A stretch of 64,000 bases of DNA from Rheinheimera sp. SA_1 (GTDB lineage Bacteria > Pseudomonadota > Gammaproteobacteria > Enterobacterales > Alteromonadaceae): NCBI RefSeq assembly GCF_001669775.1, contig NZ_LXWK01000015.1, positions 806,001 through 870,000 on the forward strand, written 5' to 3'. How positions within the stretch are numbered: position 1 is the first letter of the stretch; each line of letters opens with the position of its first letter. A program made the translations under genes and the position numbers. This document shows, one piece after another, positions 48,291-55,079 of the stretch. A model generated the notes under the pieces. The model did not search any database. It was not told the origin of the DNA and saw only the letters and a program-made list of their open reading frames with translations.

Positions 48291-48306
48291 GGGCCTGACG
48301 AGGCCC
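48291..48306 (-). terminator. Hairpin between apt and dnaX
   Basis: GGGCCT / AGGCCC stem with a GACG loop. No clear T-run on the minus strand, so it may attenuate rather than stop transcription from apt into dnaX. Confidence 0.45.
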
Positions 48307-48323
48307 TTCAGCAAATTCAGTGC

Positions 48324-48875
48324 TTAGTGGCCAGCAAAATCAATCAGGCTATAGACATTTAACTGTAACGCCGCGAGACGTTGATCACCACCTAAATCCG
48401 GCAGATTCACCACAAATGCAGCATCGCTAACATTGCCACCTAAGCGGCGTACTAATTTGGTCGTGGCATCAATAGTACCACCAGTTGCTAATAAGTCGTC
48501 AACTAACAACACTTTATCGCCAGGCACTATTGCATCAAGGTGAATTTCCAACGTGTCCTGACCATATTCCAGCTGATAACTTTCGGCAATACGCTCACGC
48601 GGTAACTTGCCCGGTTTACGTACTGGTACAAATGCTACGCCTAAGGCATAAGCTAAAGGTGCGCCAAAGATAAAACCCCGGGATTCAGTCCCGACAATTT
48701 TGGTAAAACCCTGATTGGCATAACGCTGTTTGAAGTTGTCGATCACAGCTGCAAAAGCGACCGGATCCTGCATCAGACTGGTCACATCACGGAATAAAAT
48801 ACCCGGTTTTGGATAGTCCGGTACTGACTTAATCACCTGCTCGAGCATCGTGGTGAAAGCTGTGGTTTGACTCAT
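48324..48875 (-). CDS. apt: Adenine phosphoribosyltransferase
   Basis: Salvages adenine with PRPP to AMP. 183 residues from the ATG at 48875, as in E. coli (a GTG at 48887 would add 4). PRPP-binding loop [17 protein letters not shown] and the purine-binding [21 protein letters not shown]. apt upstream of dnaX is the E. coli order. Confidence 0.97.
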
Positions 48876-48946
48876 AATCGTGGTCACTCTTGAAATAAAT
48901 GATAAAAAAACAATGGAAAGAACAGTGCTGACTGGGTGCTATCGAC

Positions 48947-48969
48947 AAAAAAACCGCCAACCGGCGGTT
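48947..48969 (-). terminator. Terminator after the small membrane ORF
   Basis: AACCGCC / GGCGGTT stem with an AACC loop (48952-48969), followed on the minus strand by seven T. It lies 20 bases after the stop of the 39-codon ORF and upstream of apt, closing the bufA-bufB-bufC transcript. Confidence 0.88.
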
Positions 48970-48988
48970 CTTCTGATCAGAAAGTAGC

Positions 48989-49108
48989 TTAACCCAGAAT
49001 TTGTAACCAGCGCAGAATAGGCACCAGACACAACAAACCTGTGAATACCACCAGGAATAACAAAAACTGAACCAGGCCAAAAGATTCTTTGAAATTTGCA
49101 TCTGCCAT
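48989..49108 (-). CDS. 39-residue predicted membrane protein
   Basis: A short frame, ATG at 49108 to TAA at 48989, beginning MADANFKESFGLVQ followed by one strong hydrophobic helix (FLLFLVVFTGLLCLVPIL) and a short RWLQILG tail. GGGA precedes the start by about 8 bases (within GGGAATTCCCTG), and a good terminator lies 20 bases beyond the stop. It follows the DUF2063 gene by 57 bases, so it may be the last cistron of the peptide operon, or a stand-alone small protein gene. I do not recognise the family. Confidence 0.6.
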   Translation of the reverse strand: MADANFKESFGLVQFLLFLVVFTGLLCLVPILRWLQILG

Positions 49109-49165
49109 CAGGGAATTCCCGTTGTTCATCAGAGTTAAAATTAAGGTCGAACATGGTAATGAATT

Positions 49166-49912
49166 TTAGGCAGATTGAAAAGCTCGGATCACGCCTTTCT
49201 TCGCCAATTCCTGCAGCAATTGTAGCGCACCGTCGCCAATCTGCTGGTTAGTTAATTGCGGGGCTAATGTCTGTAACGTCGTGGTTAATTCCGCCAAACT
49301 GGCGCCCGGAGTGTTAATAAGTAACTGTAATAAACTGGCACTTAATTGATTTAACGCCATAAATTTAATGTCATCGGCCGGATCACGATACACCAACAAT
49401 AAACTGGGTGCCGCTGATGGTTGTTCAGGTCTGAATTCAGTGCAGATTTGACTGACTGGATATTGATAACACAACAATAATGCCAGTTCATCGAGTGCCA
49501 GTTGTTGAGTCGAATCTATTTGTCCAAGCAACGGCAGGTTGTCTTGGCGATGAGCGGTTGCCAGGTGAAGCTCTATCCATTCGTAATGTGCCAACTCCAG
49601 CAAAAATGGTGGATCTTCAGGCTCAAGCGGCTGTTGTTGTAACCAAGTGAAAAAACTTTCGGCGATATCCAGAAAATACGGGCTGTGCATGCAGCTGCTT
49701 TGAAAAAACAGCCGGGCTTTGGCATGCCACTGTTGCTCGCTATATAAAGTGCGGAGCACCGGAAAAGCACTGCTGACAAAATTCAGCAAGTTATTAAAAA
49801 ACAGGTCCTGATACACAGCCATTCGTTCCTGTGCAACGCCTGGCGGCAGCGGCTGTGCCGGATCACGGATAGCTTCGGCAAATTGACTTTGGATCTGCTG
49901 GAAGTCACTCAT
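49166..49912 (-). CDS. DUF2063 partner protein of the DUF692 enzyme (BufC/HvfC type)
   Basis: A 248-residue protein. N-terminal DUF2063 domain (FAEAIRDPAQPLPPGVAQERMAVYQDLFFNN-like helices, LLNFVSSAFPVLRTL) and a C-terminal winged-helix-like region (about 200-245). In HvfABC/bufferin systems this protein pairs with the DUF692 enzyme and probably delivers the precursor peptide. The ATG at 49912 follows the DUF692 stop after a single base, indicating coupled translation. Confidence 0.87.
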   Translation of the reverse strand: MSDFQQIQSQFAEAIRDPAQPLPPGVAQERMAVYQDLFFNNLLNFVSSAFPVLRTLYSEQQWHAKARLFFQSSCMHSPYFLDIAESFFTWLQQQPLEPEDPPFLLELAHYEWIELHLATAHRQDNLPLLGQIDSTQQLALDELALLLCYQYPVSQICTEFRPEQPSAAPSLLLVYRDPADDIKFMALNQLSASLLQLLINTPGASLAELTTTLQTLAPQLTNQQIGDGALQLLQELAKKGVIRAFQSA

Positions 49913-49913
49913 A

Positions 49914-50753
49914 TTAGCCGGCAACCCTTATTTGTGCTGTCGAAGCTTGTTGCTGCAAACTTTTAATTTGTAATAATTCCTGCGCCAAAACGGCTAACTC
50001 AGGCAAATTAAAATCGCGCTCCAACAGCGTTGGAAACTCGCCATGTTGCTGATAAGCAAACTGCAGCAGCTGCCACACCGGGTCTATCACCGCAGCGCCA
50101 TGGGTGTCGATAAGCAAAGTATCAGAAGCGTGATAATGACCCGCGATATGGCCGTACACCAGCTGCCGTGTCGGCATCGCAGCGATAAATGCTCTAGCGT
50201 CATATCCATGATTCACTGAATTGACATAAACATTGTTGACGTCCAACAGCAAGCCGCAATCGGCTTGTTGCAGCACTTCCAATGTAAAATCCAGCTCCGA
50301 CATTTCCTGACCTGGCGCAGCATAATAGGATACATTTTCAATCACCAGCTGCTGTTCCAGTACTTCTTGCACCTGGCGGATGCGCCTTGCCACATAGCGT
50401 GCGGCCGCGCTGGTAAAGGGGATCGGCATTAAATCGTATAAATGGCCACCAGCCGAGCAATAACTTAAATGTTCACTGTAAAGTTTAATTTGATGGGTCT
50501 TCAGGAAAGTTTTCACGTCGGCCAGGAAATCCAGATCCAGCGGATCCGGGCTTCCCAGCGATAACGACAGGCCGTGACAGATAAAGGCATGTTGCTCGGT
50601 CAAAGCACGAAACTTCTTACCGAGCTTGCCACCAAACGGCAGCCAGTTTTCCGGGGCGACTTCAAAAAAATCGATGATGTCAGGCTTATGCTGCAGCACC
50701 GGATCCAACAGCTCCCGTCGCAGCCCAAGCCCTACCCCGCCAAAAGCTGTCAT
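49914..50753 (-). CDS. DUF692 multinuclear iron enzyme (BufB/HvfB/MbnB family)
   Basis: A 279-residue TIM-barrel enzyme. Relatives (MbnB of methanobactin, HvfB, bufferin BufB) use a di/tri-iron centre to turn peptide Cys into oxazolone-thioamide or thiooxazole groups. Candidate ligands in order: Glu31 (FFEVAPEN), His60 (CHGLSLS), Glu94-His95 (SEHLSY), Glu139-Asn140 (IENVS), Asp171 and Asn173-174 (DVNN), His202/His206 (GHIAGH), Asp216 and His218 (DTHG), Glu245 and Asp247 (ERD). All look intact. One base separates it from the precursor stop. No kinase, transporter or MbnC-like gene nearby. Confidence 0.92.
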   Translation of the reverse strand: MTAFGGVGLGLRRELLDPVLQHKPDIIDFFEVAPENWLPFGGKLGKKFRALTEQHAFICHGLSLSLGSPDPLDLDFLADVKTFLKTHQIKLYSEHLSYCSAGGHLYDLMPIPFTSAAARYVARRIRQVQEVLEQQLVIENVSYYAAPGQEMSELDFTLEVLQQADCGLLLDVNNVYVNSVNHGYDARAFIAAMPTRQLVYGHIAGHYHASDTLLIDTHGAAVIDPVWQLLQFAYQQHGEFPTLLERDFNLPELAVLAQELLQIKSLQQQASTAQIRVAG

Positions 50754-50754
50754 C

Positions 50755-51135
50755 TTAATTCATGCCACCGCATTTGCCTTCACCACATTTACCTTCTTTG
50801 GCTTTTTCAGTGGTGTCTTTGACTTTATCTTTGGCTACAGCTTTAGCCTTGTCGGAACCACATTTACCTTCGCCACACTTGCCTTCACCACATTTACCTT
50901 CTTTGGCTTTATCGGCAGTGGCTTTTGCTTTATCTGCACCACATTTTGCTTCTTTGGTCTTGTCATCAGTTTTAGTTTTATCTGCGCCACAAGATGCTTC
51001 CGTGGCTGCCAGCTGATAACCACCACTTAACTCAGTCGCAGTAAAATCCTGCGCCTGCACCGCACCAATACTGCTCAGCGAACCTAAAACAAAAACACCT
51101 ACCACTGCGGTAACTTTTCGATTGATTGTTGTCAT
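50755..51135 (-). CDS. Exported Cys-Gly repeat precursor peptide (BufA/HvfA type)
   Basis: A 126-residue precursor: Sec signal peptide (residues 1-28, RKVTAVVGVFVLGSLSSIGAVQA), then a charged Lys/Asp/Glu/Ala chain. All seven Cys are followed by Gly: Cys49, 65, 82, 87, 92, 117 and 122. Five lie in exact EGKCG motifs (79-83, 84-88, 89-93, 114-118, 119-123); two are variants (EASCG, EAKCG). EGKCG is the unit modified by HvfB-type enzymes into copper-binding groups. AAAGGA ribosome site. A 381-base opposite-strand frame is a repeat artefact. Confidence 0.92.
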   Translation of the reverse strand: MTTINRKVTAVVGVFVLGSLSSIGAVQAQDFTATELSGGYQLAATEASCGADKTKTDDKTKEAKCGADKAKATADKAKEGKCGEGKCGEGKCGSDKAKAVAKDKVKDTTEKAKEGKCGEGKCGGMN

Positions 51136-51172
51136 GATTTTAATCCTTTGCTGTTGTTGAGGTTGGCCGGGT

Positions 51173-51298
51173 TATACCCGTCATCCTTGACGATGCTTGT
51201 TGGCCGCCTTCACTCACCCCAGTCACCTAAAACAGCTATATTCCTGGAGCTTCGATTAGTTGCTGCCTACCCGAATCTTCAATGACTTTGGGTAAATA
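51173..51298 (-). repeat. ERIC-like repeat, copy 7 (reverse orientation, diverged)
   Basis: TATACCC at the left and GGGTAAATA at the right; on the minus strand the core reads GGAATATAGCTG then TAGGTGACTGGGGTGAG. About 126 bp. It is 37 bases upstream of the precursor gene start, so the promoter must lie in or beyond it and it may be transcribed in the leader. Confidence 0.8.
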
Positions 51299-51384
51299 TC
51301 CCGACTGCGATAAGTAGACCTGGATAACCGCGATAAAATTTCAGCGTACAAAAAAATGACCAACATATTTTCCGGTTACTCTGA

Positions 51385-51405
51385 AAACATGCACTTTGCA
51401 TGTTT
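51385..51405. promoter_or_regulatory. Perfect 21-bp palindrome between the peptide operon and the dksA-like gene
   Basis: AAACATGCA-CTT-TGCATGTTT, 9-bp arms and a 3-base centre. It lies between the divergent precursor gene and the DksA/TraR-like gene, outside the ERIC repeat. It has the form of a dimeric regulator's operator. No T-run follows, so a terminator is unlikely. The cognate regulator is not evident. Confidence 0.55.
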
Positions 51406-51523
51406 AGCATAAAGTATCAGCGACGTGCTTGCTAATGTCTTTACCTTTGATCTGTATCAGAACATCGATTGCCAAAACTGGCCACAATCAGCCAAGTCCC
51501 ATCAAAGTTATTTGAGGTTTGAG

Positions 51524-52121: not shown

Positions 52122-55079
52122 TTAGAACTTAACGTTCAGAGTCATGCGGTAAGTACGGCCAATCATATCGTAGTGAGATGGGAAGGTGTTACCAGAGTTA
52201 AACGTGGTAGAAGCAGCTTCGTTACCAACAACCGGAGCTTCACGATCCAGCAGGTTATCCACACCGAAGTTCACTTTCATCGCTTCACTGATCTGGTAGC
52301 TGCCGTACATATCTACATAGCTGTAAGAGCCAATGTGACGGAACGCAGCAAAAGTACCGCTTGCCATGCCAGGCTCAACATCGATGTCACTCATCCAGCG
52401 CCACATAAAGCCTAATGAGTAATCTTCATAGTTCCAGGTTACACGCTGGTTCGCACGAGTTTCGTGTTGCGGATCACAGCTGGTACCGAAATAACCGTTA
52501 CAGTCGATCACTTCTGAAGTTGGTGCACTTAAAGTTTCAACATCGATGTAGTGGTTCAATTGACCAGAGAAATCAACAGTACCCATAGACGCTAAGTTGA
52601 AGCCAAAAGAGTACTGAACTTCATAACCAGTTGTTTTCAGATAATCAAGGTTGGTGATGTACTGCTGGATACCAGAGATATCAGAAATCAGCGTACCGCC
52701 ATCACGTGTGATCAGGTCACACTGAGCCTGGTTACCCAGAATATAACAACCATCCAGTACTTCTTGTGGCGTGTTGGTATCGATATAACCATCAACATAG
52801 ATATCGTAGTAGTCAACAGACAAGTTTACACGTTCAACACCGTCAAATTCTGGTGTCCATACGAAACCAATGGTAGTGGTTTTTGCATCTTCTGCATCTG
52901 GTGGAGACAGTGGGTCAGAACCAGAGAATACGTTGATTTGACCAGAAATGATGTCGTCAACAGCGCCTACTTGTGCGTTTGTCATGCCAGTTGCAATACA
53001 ACGGGCACGTAAAGTAGCATCAATATTTGCAGCGTTGGCCTTTGAACATGGGTCCATCGTCGCGTTATCCAGACCTGATGTCAGTGGCGCGAACAATTCA
53101 CCTACGTTAGGAGCACGAGTTGCAGCGTTGTTCATCACACGGAATAACAACTCATCGTTGACACGCCATGCAACACCCAGTTTCCATGAACCGTTGTCAC
53201 CAACAGTGTTGTAATTACCATGGCGGTAACCAAACTCAAGCTCGACAACATCTGACAGGAAACCATCTTCAATCAGTGCCACTTTACCTTCAGTAAACAG
53301 TTCGTTTACTTTAAACATACCGCCTACTGGCAATTGGTTACCACCGGCGCCACCTAAACAGCTGGCTGGAGCTAATTTCCAACATTCATCTGGGTTAGAA
53401 AACGCTTCTTCTTCACGCCACTCATAACCGAAGCTCATTGACAATGGTGAATCAGCCCAAGGAGATACGATAGCGTCGAATGGACCGTTGATAGAACCTG
53501 AAACCACACGTTGTTGATATTCAGTTGCAACGAAAGCAGTTGCACGAGCATAAGCAGCCATTTCTTCAGTGATAGAACCGAAACCACCGAATAAGTTGAT
53601 TGGCACACAGCTTGAATCGCCGTTACGACATGCGGTTTCTGATACTGCATCTAACTGGTTTGCAATGTTCGCAACGTTAGTGTAACCAGCGCTGACGTCT
53701 AAACGTTTAGTCTGACCGTGCTGAGCTGAAACTTCATAAGCCCAGGTATCCGTCAGGAAACCTTCCACACCAGTCACGAACTGGAATTGGTCAGAATCAT
53801 AACCAGTTGAACGTGCCCCTAACTCAACAGTACGACGGAAAATGTTCATCCGTAAGGAGTCAGCCTGATCAACAACGCCGTTGTTGTTCGTGTCACGCCA
53901 GTTGGTCGCATTCATGCTACCAAGAGCAGCATTTGCACCGTTCAGGATGAAATTACGAGCTTGAGTATTTAAGAACGGGTTTGCCATTGGGATCCAGAAG
54001 GCAGTACCGAAAATACCTGATGGCGCAACTTGCGTGTCTACTGAAGTCGTTACGTAGTTTACGTTTGTGAATACAGTATGTTCGTCGTTCAGGTTGTAAC
54101 GTGCTAATGCTGTAGCGCTGTAACGCTTAGCTGGAGTCTGGTAGTAGTTGAACGGGTTGAAGTTAAATACCGAACAGTTTGCACCAAGATTACCGCCATC
54201 ACGGAACTGACCGGCAACACTTGGAACACCAAACAGACCAATACGCGTTGGCAGCGTAGTACCTGAACCGCCAGCAGCTACTGCACCTGGACCACCACAC
54301 GCTGGATCAGCTGGTGGAGTTGGAGCAATACCATCGAGGAAGTTTTGGTAGTTGCCGCCAGTTGCAGTCACGATACCCAGGTTACCCAGTGGGCGCTGAC
54401 CTAACAGCAGAGAATCACGATCTAACCAGCCGAGAGACAGAACAGCGTTACCTTTGTCATCATCAAAATTGCCACCTAAAGTCAGGCTGGCATTTTGAGA
54501 GAAAGCATCGGCTTCAGCAGAACGGGAATGGCCTGTTTCGAATTCAACACCTTCGAAGTCGTTTTTCAGAACAACGTTCATGGCGCCTGAAATTGCATCA
54601 GAACCGTATACAGCTGATGCACCACCAGTGACCAGATCGATACGATCGATCAGTGCTGTTGGGATAGAAGAAGTATCAACATGGCCTTGAGTGTTAAACG
54701 GAACCATCCGCTTACCATTCATCAGGATCAAGTTACGGTTACGGCCCAGACCACGTAAGTTGATTGAAGCAGCACCACCAGAACCGTTGTTTACGTTTGA
54801 ACCGTCACCTGGCAGCGCAGATGGCAGGTTACGGATAATACGTTCAACTTCAGGTTGCTGTTGTTGCTTAATTTCGATTTCGCCGATGGTTGCAATTGGG
54901 CTGGTCGACATGGCGTTGGCACTACGGATCCGGCTACCGGTTACCTGAATTTTTTCGACTGTTTGATCAGCAGCTGGTTCTTCCTGGGCTACAACGCCCT
55001 GAGAAAAGAACAGAGGTGAGGCAACCCCTAAGACCAGCGCGATTTTTACCGACTTTGATAGTTTATTCGCAGCAAACAT
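52122..55079 (-). CDS. TonB-dependent outer-membrane receptor
   Basis: A 985-residue outer-membrane active transporter. Signal peptide ending SQGVVAQ, TonB box-like region (VEKIQVTGSRIRSANAMSTS), plug domain (INLRGLGRNRNLILMNGKRMVPF; GGASAVYGSDAISGAMNVVLKNDFEG) and a 22-strand barrel ending with Phe (YRMTLNVKF). The large size and this plug type are typical of Alteromonadales and sphingomonad receptors for oligosaccharides, peptides or other non-iron substrates; the substrate is not determinable. No enzymes or TonB genes sit beside it. Confidence 0.94.
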   Translation of the reverse strand: MFAANKLSKSVKIALVLGVASPLFFSQGVVAQEEPAADQTVEKIQVTGSRIRSANAMSTSPIATIGEIEIKQQQQPEVERIIRNLPSALPGDGSNVNNGSGGAASINLRGLGRNRNLILMNGKRMVPFNTQGHVDTSSIPTALIDRIDLVTGGASAVYGSDAISGAMNVVLKNDFEGVEFETGHSRSAEADAFSQNASLTLGGNFDDDKGNAVLSLGWLDRDSLLLGQRPLGNLGIVTATGGNYQNFLDGIAPTPPADPACGGPGAVAAGGSGTTLPTRIGLFGVPSVAGQFRDGGNLGANCSVFNFNPFNYYQTPAKRYSATALARYNLNDEHTVFTNVNYVTTSVDTQVAPSGIFGTAFWIPMANPFLNTQARNFILNGANAALGSMNATNWRDTNNNGVVDQADSLRMNIFRRTVELGARSTGYDSDQFQFVTGVEGFLTDTWAYEVSAQHGQTKRLDVSAGYTNVANIANQLDAVSETACRNGDSSCVPINLFGGFGSITEEMAAYARATAFVATEYQQRVVSGSINGPFDAIVSPWADSPLSMSFGYEWREEEAFSNPDECWKLAPASCLGGAGGNQLPVGGMFKVNELFTEGKVALIEDGFLSDVVELEFGYRHGNYNTVGDNGSWKLGVAWRVNDELLFRVMNNAATRAPNVGELFAPLTSGLDNATMDPCSKANAANIDATLRARCIATGMTNAQVGAVDDIISGQINVFSGSDPLSPPDAEDAKTTTIGFVWTPEFDGVERVNLSVDYYDIYVDGYIDTNTPQEVLDGCYILGNQAQCDLITRDGGTLISDISGIQQYITNLDYLKTTGYEVQYSFGFNLASMGTVDFSGQLNHYIDVETLSAPTSEVIDCNGYFGTSCDPQHETRANQRVTWNYEDYSLGFMWRWMSDIDVEPGMASGTFAAFRHIGSYSYVDMYGSYQISEAMKVNFGVDNLLDREAPVVGNEAASTTFNSGNTFPSHYDMIGRTYRMTLNVKF

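Follow-up and report, generated by a model that had tools for sequence, protein, structure and literature searches.

What is made by a small operon that pairs a cysteine-rich, apparently exported peptide with an iron enzyme in an environmental gammaproteobacterium, and what is the product for? The operon lies on the minus strand of a 64,000-nucleotide stretch of the Rheinheimera sp. SA_1 genome (GCF_001669775.1, contig NZ_LXWK01000015.1, positions 806,001 to 870,000), called the window hereafter. Taking operon type and chemistry together, we are confident that it encodes a captophorin of the EGKCG type, similar to the oxazolins and fontiphorins, with HvfB-type chemistry. It is an ordinary, conserved captophorin set, new as a member and not as a kind. 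The class name comes from the fontiphorin paper, which puts captophorins in RefSeq at more than 20,000 (PMC12668002). At stake for the whole class are its natural inducer and its purpose, whether copper, oxidant, or both.

Three genes run from 51135 to 49166 with a stop-to-start gap of exactly one base at both junctions, in agreement with the initial annotation of this DNA. The hvfA-like precursor (50755..51135, 126 residues) is followed by hvfB, an MNIO (DUF692) maturase of 279 residues (49914..50753), and by hvfC, a DUF2063/PME1 partner with an NGO1945_C domain (49166..49912). HvfC has 248 residues when counted from its ATG; the list of open reading frames (ORFs) starts it at an upstream TTG (49924). 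The operon had been drawn as far as 48989, but hvfC ends at 49166, and 48989..49108 is a separate minus-strand ORF of 39 residues that the annotation did not mention.

A recount of the sequence upheld the earlier description of the precursor as a 126-residue protein with seven Cys, all before Gly, and five exact EGKCG motifs. The cysteines (positions 49, 65, 82, 87, 92, 117 and 122) occur in the order EASCG, EAKCG, three EGKCG and two more EGKCG. Shuffling the mature part 20,000 times never produced seven Cys-Gly pairs, nor more than one E[GA][KS]CG motif, compared with seven in the real sequence. Read by eye, the N-terminus looks like a Sec-type signal, with a basic start, a hydrophobic stretch (mean Kyte-Doolittle value 2.07 over 19 residues) and the string AVQA/QD. 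The HvfA-family repeat model NF050137 matches three stretches with 46.9 bits, well above its cut-off of 19.5. Two observations weigh against the captophorin assignment. The precursor scores 30.4 bits on the HvfA equivalog NF050188, below the cut-off of 95, and is therefore not filed as HvfA proper; and its Cys spacings (16, 17, 5, 5, 25, 5) depart from the 17-residue repeat of type-1 precursors. Fold prediction was uninformative, giving no confident fold (predicted local distance difference test, pLDDT, 41.7).

The enzyme and its partner carry the family assignment, in which HvfB was separated from BufB by curated NCBIfam cut-offs. The enzyme passes the HvfB model NF003818 (425.7 bits, cut-off 360) and matches PF05114 with 349.3 bits. 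The partner passes the HvfC model NF050145 (270.4 bits, cut-off 142) and matches PF09836 (83.7 bits) and PF22106 (82.9 bits). On the BufB model NF050167 the enzyme reaches 266 bits and fails the cut-off of 310, and a Pfam profile search found no DUF2282 match in the precursor. The annotation had proposed an HvfABC/bufferin type; its HvfABC half stands, through the HvfB, HvfC and repeat models, whereas the models tested do not support the bufferin half or membership of the HvfA equivalog. Among solved structures, 3BWW comes closest to the enzyme (233.9 bits), ahead of the DUF692 protein 8hci (59.2 bits) and MbnB 7dz9 (49.6 bits), and 3DEE comes closest to the partner (48.6 bits). Both 3BWW and 3DEE have been placed in probable clusters of this kind for ribosomally synthesized and post-translationally modified peptides (RiPPs; PMC12668002). 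In Haemophilus influenzae HvfB, loss of N175, D242 or H244 abolishes activity (PMC13419390). These residues would correspond to N174, D216 and H218 of our enzyme, the numbering coming from an alignment through 3BWW and not through HvfB itself, and all three are invariant in 20 of 20 aligned MNIOs.

The set is conserved throughout the genus. The enzyme was found in all 21 other Rheinheimera genomes searched (34 of 40 relatives overall), and all 22 genus genomes have an enzyme-adjacent precursor of the EGKCG kind. The closest loci are those of Rheinheimera, R. riviphila being 94% identical. Across the 22 precursors every counted Cys (149/149) precedes Gly, and the core motifs comprise 88 EGKCG, 42 EAKCG, 16 EASCG, two EAACG and one EHKCG. 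The number of EGKCG motifs differs even between close species, five in the window and six in R. riviphila. In a clade of 12 species, EAKCG occurs in every precursor and makes up three of the five to seven units in 11 of them. For testing the tolerance of the enzyme, the Rheinheimera precursors offer a ready-made range of core motifs (EGKCG, EAKCG, EASCG, EAACG).

The annotation left the chemistry as oxazolone-thioamide or thiooxazole. Published work on HvfB and its relatives assigns the product as 5-thiooxazole and not oxazolone-thioamide (Manley et al. 2026 preprint, PMC13419390; PMC12668002), and by homology the window operon would make the same group. Four Da are lost per Cys in the related EGKCG peptides HvfA of nontypeable H. 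influenzae, FonA, MmrA and NedA. The annotation had also suggested that the two outlying units, EASCG and EAKCG, may stay unmodified. In favour of a role as plain thiols or spacers, neither has a tandem neighbour here, and a FonA peptide cut down to one repeat received no modification (PMC12668002). In 18 of the 22 genus precursors, moreover, Ser or Ala takes the place of Lys in the first unit; the remaining four have no such unit. We nevertheless regard unmodified outlying units as unlikely. In the peptide FonA67-80 (SGEAKCGEGKCGEK) both Lys-Cys motifs are modified, a natural EAKCG among them, and FonBC tolerates Ala at position 3 (PMC12668002); EAKCG units are for these reasons probably modified. 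It also speaks against idle EAKCG units that they are so numerous in the 12-species clade and that 22 of the 42 in the genus stand in tandem. EASCG is not among the FonA variants reported as tested in the part of that paper drawn on here. It is a single unit in 16 of 16 genus cases and in tandem in six of 12 cases over the named loci of all genera.

Characterized relatives suggest how the modified precursor would work. HvfC, a DUF2063 protein containing a RiPP recognition element, would present the precursor to HvfB, with the Sec signal serving as leader. HvfB, a multinuclear iron enzyme, would oxidize the Lys-Cys units, and probably the Ser-Cys unit, to 5-thiooxazoles with the loss of four hydrogens each. 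The modified peptide would then be exported and freed of its signal, and its flexible chain would bind copper in the periplasm. Less firmly, we propose that transcription of the operon under envelope metal or oxidant stress may depend on an extracytoplasmic function (ECF) sigma factor partnered by a DUF3379 membrane protein. Our own observations are the gene content, the membership of curated models, the conserved site-3 ligand positions, the genus-wide conservation and a conserved promoter-like element; modification, export and copper binding are inferred from the relatives.

A role in copper defence is plausible for Rheinheimera by homology. Copper binding was shown for the products of several homologous operons (PMC13419390, PMC12668002, PMC12538549), and bufferins improve growth under copper stress (PMC12452194). 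In Microbulbifer, however, the homologous proteins escaped detection whether or not copper was added, and the study is hesitant to assign copper protection (PMC12538549). The operon might instead serve mainly in envelope defence against hypochlorite or thiol oxidants, copper binding being secondary. The four hvf genes of H. influenzae are induced by hypochlorite in a strongly RpoE2-dependent manner and share homology with a cluster belonging to the Neisseria sigmaE regulon (PMC7907618), which also contains msrAB (PMC3240639); in Arsukibacterium perlucidum, thioredoxin and DsbD-like genes come after hvfC (L073:5227-6300). Against these points stand the same copper binding by several homologous products and the growth benefit from bufferins, and we consider a mainly oxidant-directed role possible but doubtful. 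Far less credible is a secreted chalkophore for copper uptake. Such a peptide would share with methanobactin an MNIO and modified cysteines, yet the enzyme scores only 44.8 bits on the MbnB model TIGR04159 (cut-off 325). Uptake or export partners are absent among the immediate neighbours examined, and the nearest TonB receptor (52122-55079) lies past another, divergent ORF.

It might also be asked whether the operon has a fourth, unannotated component that replaces DoxX, a gene absent from the immediate neighbours of the window hvfABC, an absence that itself counts against the captophorin assignment. The 39-residue ORF, a putative single-helix membrane protein, is the obvious candidate: it comes directly after hvfC in all 22 genus genomes and in 53 of the 80 named loci, and has a strongly conserved N-terminus. 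We rejected it and judge it a neighbour, its membership of the operon being very improbable. It tracks apt instead, which was found downstream in 52 of the 53 loci that have the ORF and in none of the 27 that lack it (in five of these 27, L116, L132, L133, L137 and L141, the sequence ends within about 250 bases after hvfC). In one genus of another family, 18 loci have the ORF beside apt with no hvfC within 1.5 kb on each side, between a response-regulator-like gene and a putative ybaN-like gene plus apt. Five of those 18 genomes gave no MNIO match at all. The N-terminus of this protein family reads MAD-x-NFKESF..., elsewhere MS..FKDPFN..., and its members accompany apt across several families of the order. 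Neither Pfam nor NCBIfam matches the window copy at E values up to 1. The hvf-apt order itself is common to Rheinheimera, Pseudoalteromonas, Shewanella and Alteromonas loci, which suggests vertical descent at this site.

How is the captophorin operon switched on? Alignment of hvfA upstream regions revealed the pattern TGAAAT-N17-GGTCT. The window copy, GAAAT-N17-GGTCT on the minus strand (51316..51342), lies 180 nt ahead of the hvfA start codon, and shuffles of the window contain 0.18 copies on average. The exact pattern GAAAT-N16/17-GGTC precedes hvfA in 59 of 95 loci, a set in which at least seven genomes are included twice, and in none for the reversed control. Group counts were taken over the 69 named loci that have a precursor ORF, assigned to groups by their record titles. 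GAAA-N17/18-GGTC precedes hvfA in 47 of the 53 Alteromonadales loci among them, with no reversed match in any of the 69. The contributing groups are Rheinheimera (13/14), Arsukibacterium/Alishewanella (2/4), Pseudoalteromonas (21/22), Shewanella (6/8) and other Alteromonadales (5/5), while none of 16 methanotroph and unclassified gammaproteobacterial loci has it. The exact pattern is present in 38 of the 53. In 35 of the 47 loci an in-frame stop lies between the element and the first core Cys, so that the element is not coding there. A sigma-70 scan of 48300-51500 found nothing promoter-like on the minus strand; a terminator scan of the same interval gave five terminator-like sites compared with 3.8 in shuffles. 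The element may be a conserved switch worked by a stress-responsive sigma factor, and we regard it as a lead worth following. Its distance from the start codon is about 60 nt in R. riviphila, against which the window has some 120 extra bases (about 51170-51290) between the element and the hvfA ribosome-binding site. In A. perlucidum a GAAAT-N17-GGTC element stands ahead of the thioredoxin and DsbD-like genes.

A candidate for the sigma factor comes from Arsukibacterium tuosuense, where genes for DoxX, an ECF sigma factor and a DUF3379 protein come after hvfABC, in that order and on the same strand. The element also occurs just ahead of the DoxX ORF in that genome, with a third match within the called ECF ORF. 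SA_1 has an orthologous pair, an ECF factor (60% to that of A. tuosuense) with DUF3379 behind it (L165:7869-9129, contig C16), and a DUF3379 relative lies within the locus of all 30 ECF orthologues examined, that of SA_1 included. Nine genomes of the 12-species EAKCG-rich clade have the ECF and hvfB genes on a single contig, some 8 to 9 kb from each other; the remaining three are draft assemblies in which the two genes fall on separate contigs. Of 30 ECF upstream regions, 24 contain GGTCT, compared with a mean of 2.0 and a maximum of 6 in shuffles. In 12 ECF loci, however, it lies inside coding sequence with a start codon upstream, ten of the 12 reading Val-Ser at the end, and we therefore kept as support only ten genus loci (L167-L175, L177). 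These are all the ECF loci of the genus outside the EAKCG clade. They have TGCACA or TGAACA exactly 17 nt ahead of GGTCT and no in-frame start codon upstream of the element. In L182 and L188, GGTCT stands at the same place as in the coding cases, but no such start codon precedes it. The SA_1 ECF gene has an exact GAAAT..GGTC match 201 nt upstream, which was considered as a self-promoter and dropped for lack of conservation in the sister genome; exact GAAAT occurs before ECF genes in nine of 31 rows, two of which are this dropped match counted twice.

Searched genome-wide, TGAAAT-N17-GGTCTH has one occurrence in genome G006, at hvfA, with two for the reversed control. The pattern was widened to TGMAMW-N17-GGTCTH after inspection of the ECF upstream regions, and SA_1 then gave nine matches compared with 23 for the reversed control. 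ORFs contain six of the nine; the other three are placed like promoters, two of them before hvfA and the ECF gene.

Several observations weigh against ECF control. Genome-wide, the promoter patterns show no enrichment over reversed controls (11 against 44, 9 against 23), and the SA_1 ECF gene is on a different contig from hvf. Outside the genus the element-like string before ECF genes is mostly coding. Within the EAKCG clade, four of five ECF loci examined lack an upstream GGTCT, and that of the fifth falls within a coding region. The element overlaps an apparent inverted repeat in L174, L175 and L177. A second hvf-type locus of SA_1, on contig C1, has no GAAAT-N15-18-GGTC within the surrounding 15 kb. 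Finally, the ECF gene is also present in genomes (G022, G023) whose best MNIO match is only 38-40%, and must therefore have other targets. The likeness of the elements and the Arsukibacterium gene order suggest, and do not prove, that the ECF factor controls hvfA.

The DUF3379 candidate has 235 residues and one hydrophobic stretch, read as a membrane helix. Beyond this stretch, H113, C157, H166 and P182 are invariant in 31 aligned DUF3379 proteins, residues that would suit a metal or redox sensor. A single-sequence fold model was poor (pLDDT 45.6) and its geometry was not used, and our literature search found no paper naming DUF3379 or PF11859. We tentatively propose that in Alteromonadales an ECF factor turns on the captophorin operon and is itself held by the DUF3379 membrane protein, the periplasmic part of which would directly sense copper or oxidant through H113, C157 and H166. 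Our confidence in this proposal, already low, was reduced a little further because the element overlaps the inverted repeat in three of the ten supporting loci. If it is correct, a single envelope sensor controls a thiooxazole copper buffer. With the promoter element and a candidate sigma factor and sensor, the question of the natural signal would be open to direct test in an environmental, non-pathogenic genus.

Precedents exist for such control. The RpoE2/HrsE pair of Haemophilus and the sigmaE/MseR pair of Neisseria each place an hvf-type operon under an ECF factor (PMC7907618, PMC3240639). Their anti-sigma factors are small (HrsE has 67 residues, and a ZAS zinc motif is present in its Neisseria relative), whereas the Rheinheimera candidate is the much longer DUF3379 protein. 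The operon itself resembles HvfABC/oxazolin of nontypeable H. influenzae in passing the HvfB and HvfC models, in its EGKCG units and in an apparent signal peptide on the precursor. The six Cys of HvfA fall in three AEGKCGEGKCG motifs (PMC13419390), whereas the seven of the window precursor form a triplet, a doublet and two single variant units; the missing DoxX neighbour and the score below the HvfA equivalog cut-off are further differences. By description, FonABC/fontiphorin of Fontimonas thermophila is alike in its EGKCG and natural EAKCG units, seven sites, MNIO and PME1 protein. MmrABC/bulbicupramide of Microbulbifer, also likened by description, is a genus-wide operon with five to eight EGKCG cysteines that vary by species, as here. 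Its Mmr proteins escaped detection under both copper regimes. The bufferins (BufA1/BufA2) share MNIO and DUF2063 proteins, the conversion of Cys to thiooxazole and copper chelation; they differ in the precursor, which has no DUF2282 match here, and in the enzyme, which is below the BufB cut-off.

Downstream of hvfC, the 39-residue ORF is followed by a phosphoribosyltransferase gene read as apt and by a long ORF read as a putative dnaX. Upstream of hvfA lies a divergent ORF of 151 residues with weak DksA/YteA-like matches, all below cut-offs. Elsewhere in the SA_1 genome there are two further MNIO loci, on contigs C1 and C3. The C3 enzyme (L003) is nearer BufB, at 283.7 bits under the cut-off of 310. 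It is followed by a 280-residue ORF and preceded by a 92-residue ORF with a CALC string near its C-terminus and no Pfam match; no precursor was recognized. The C1 locus (L002) encodes an enzyme that scores 421.2 bits as HvfB and a precursor with 28.8 bits on the repeat model (cut-off 19.5). This precursor has four EGKCG motifs, as has EfhP of Pseudomonas, and its C-terminal part was read as EF-hand-like.

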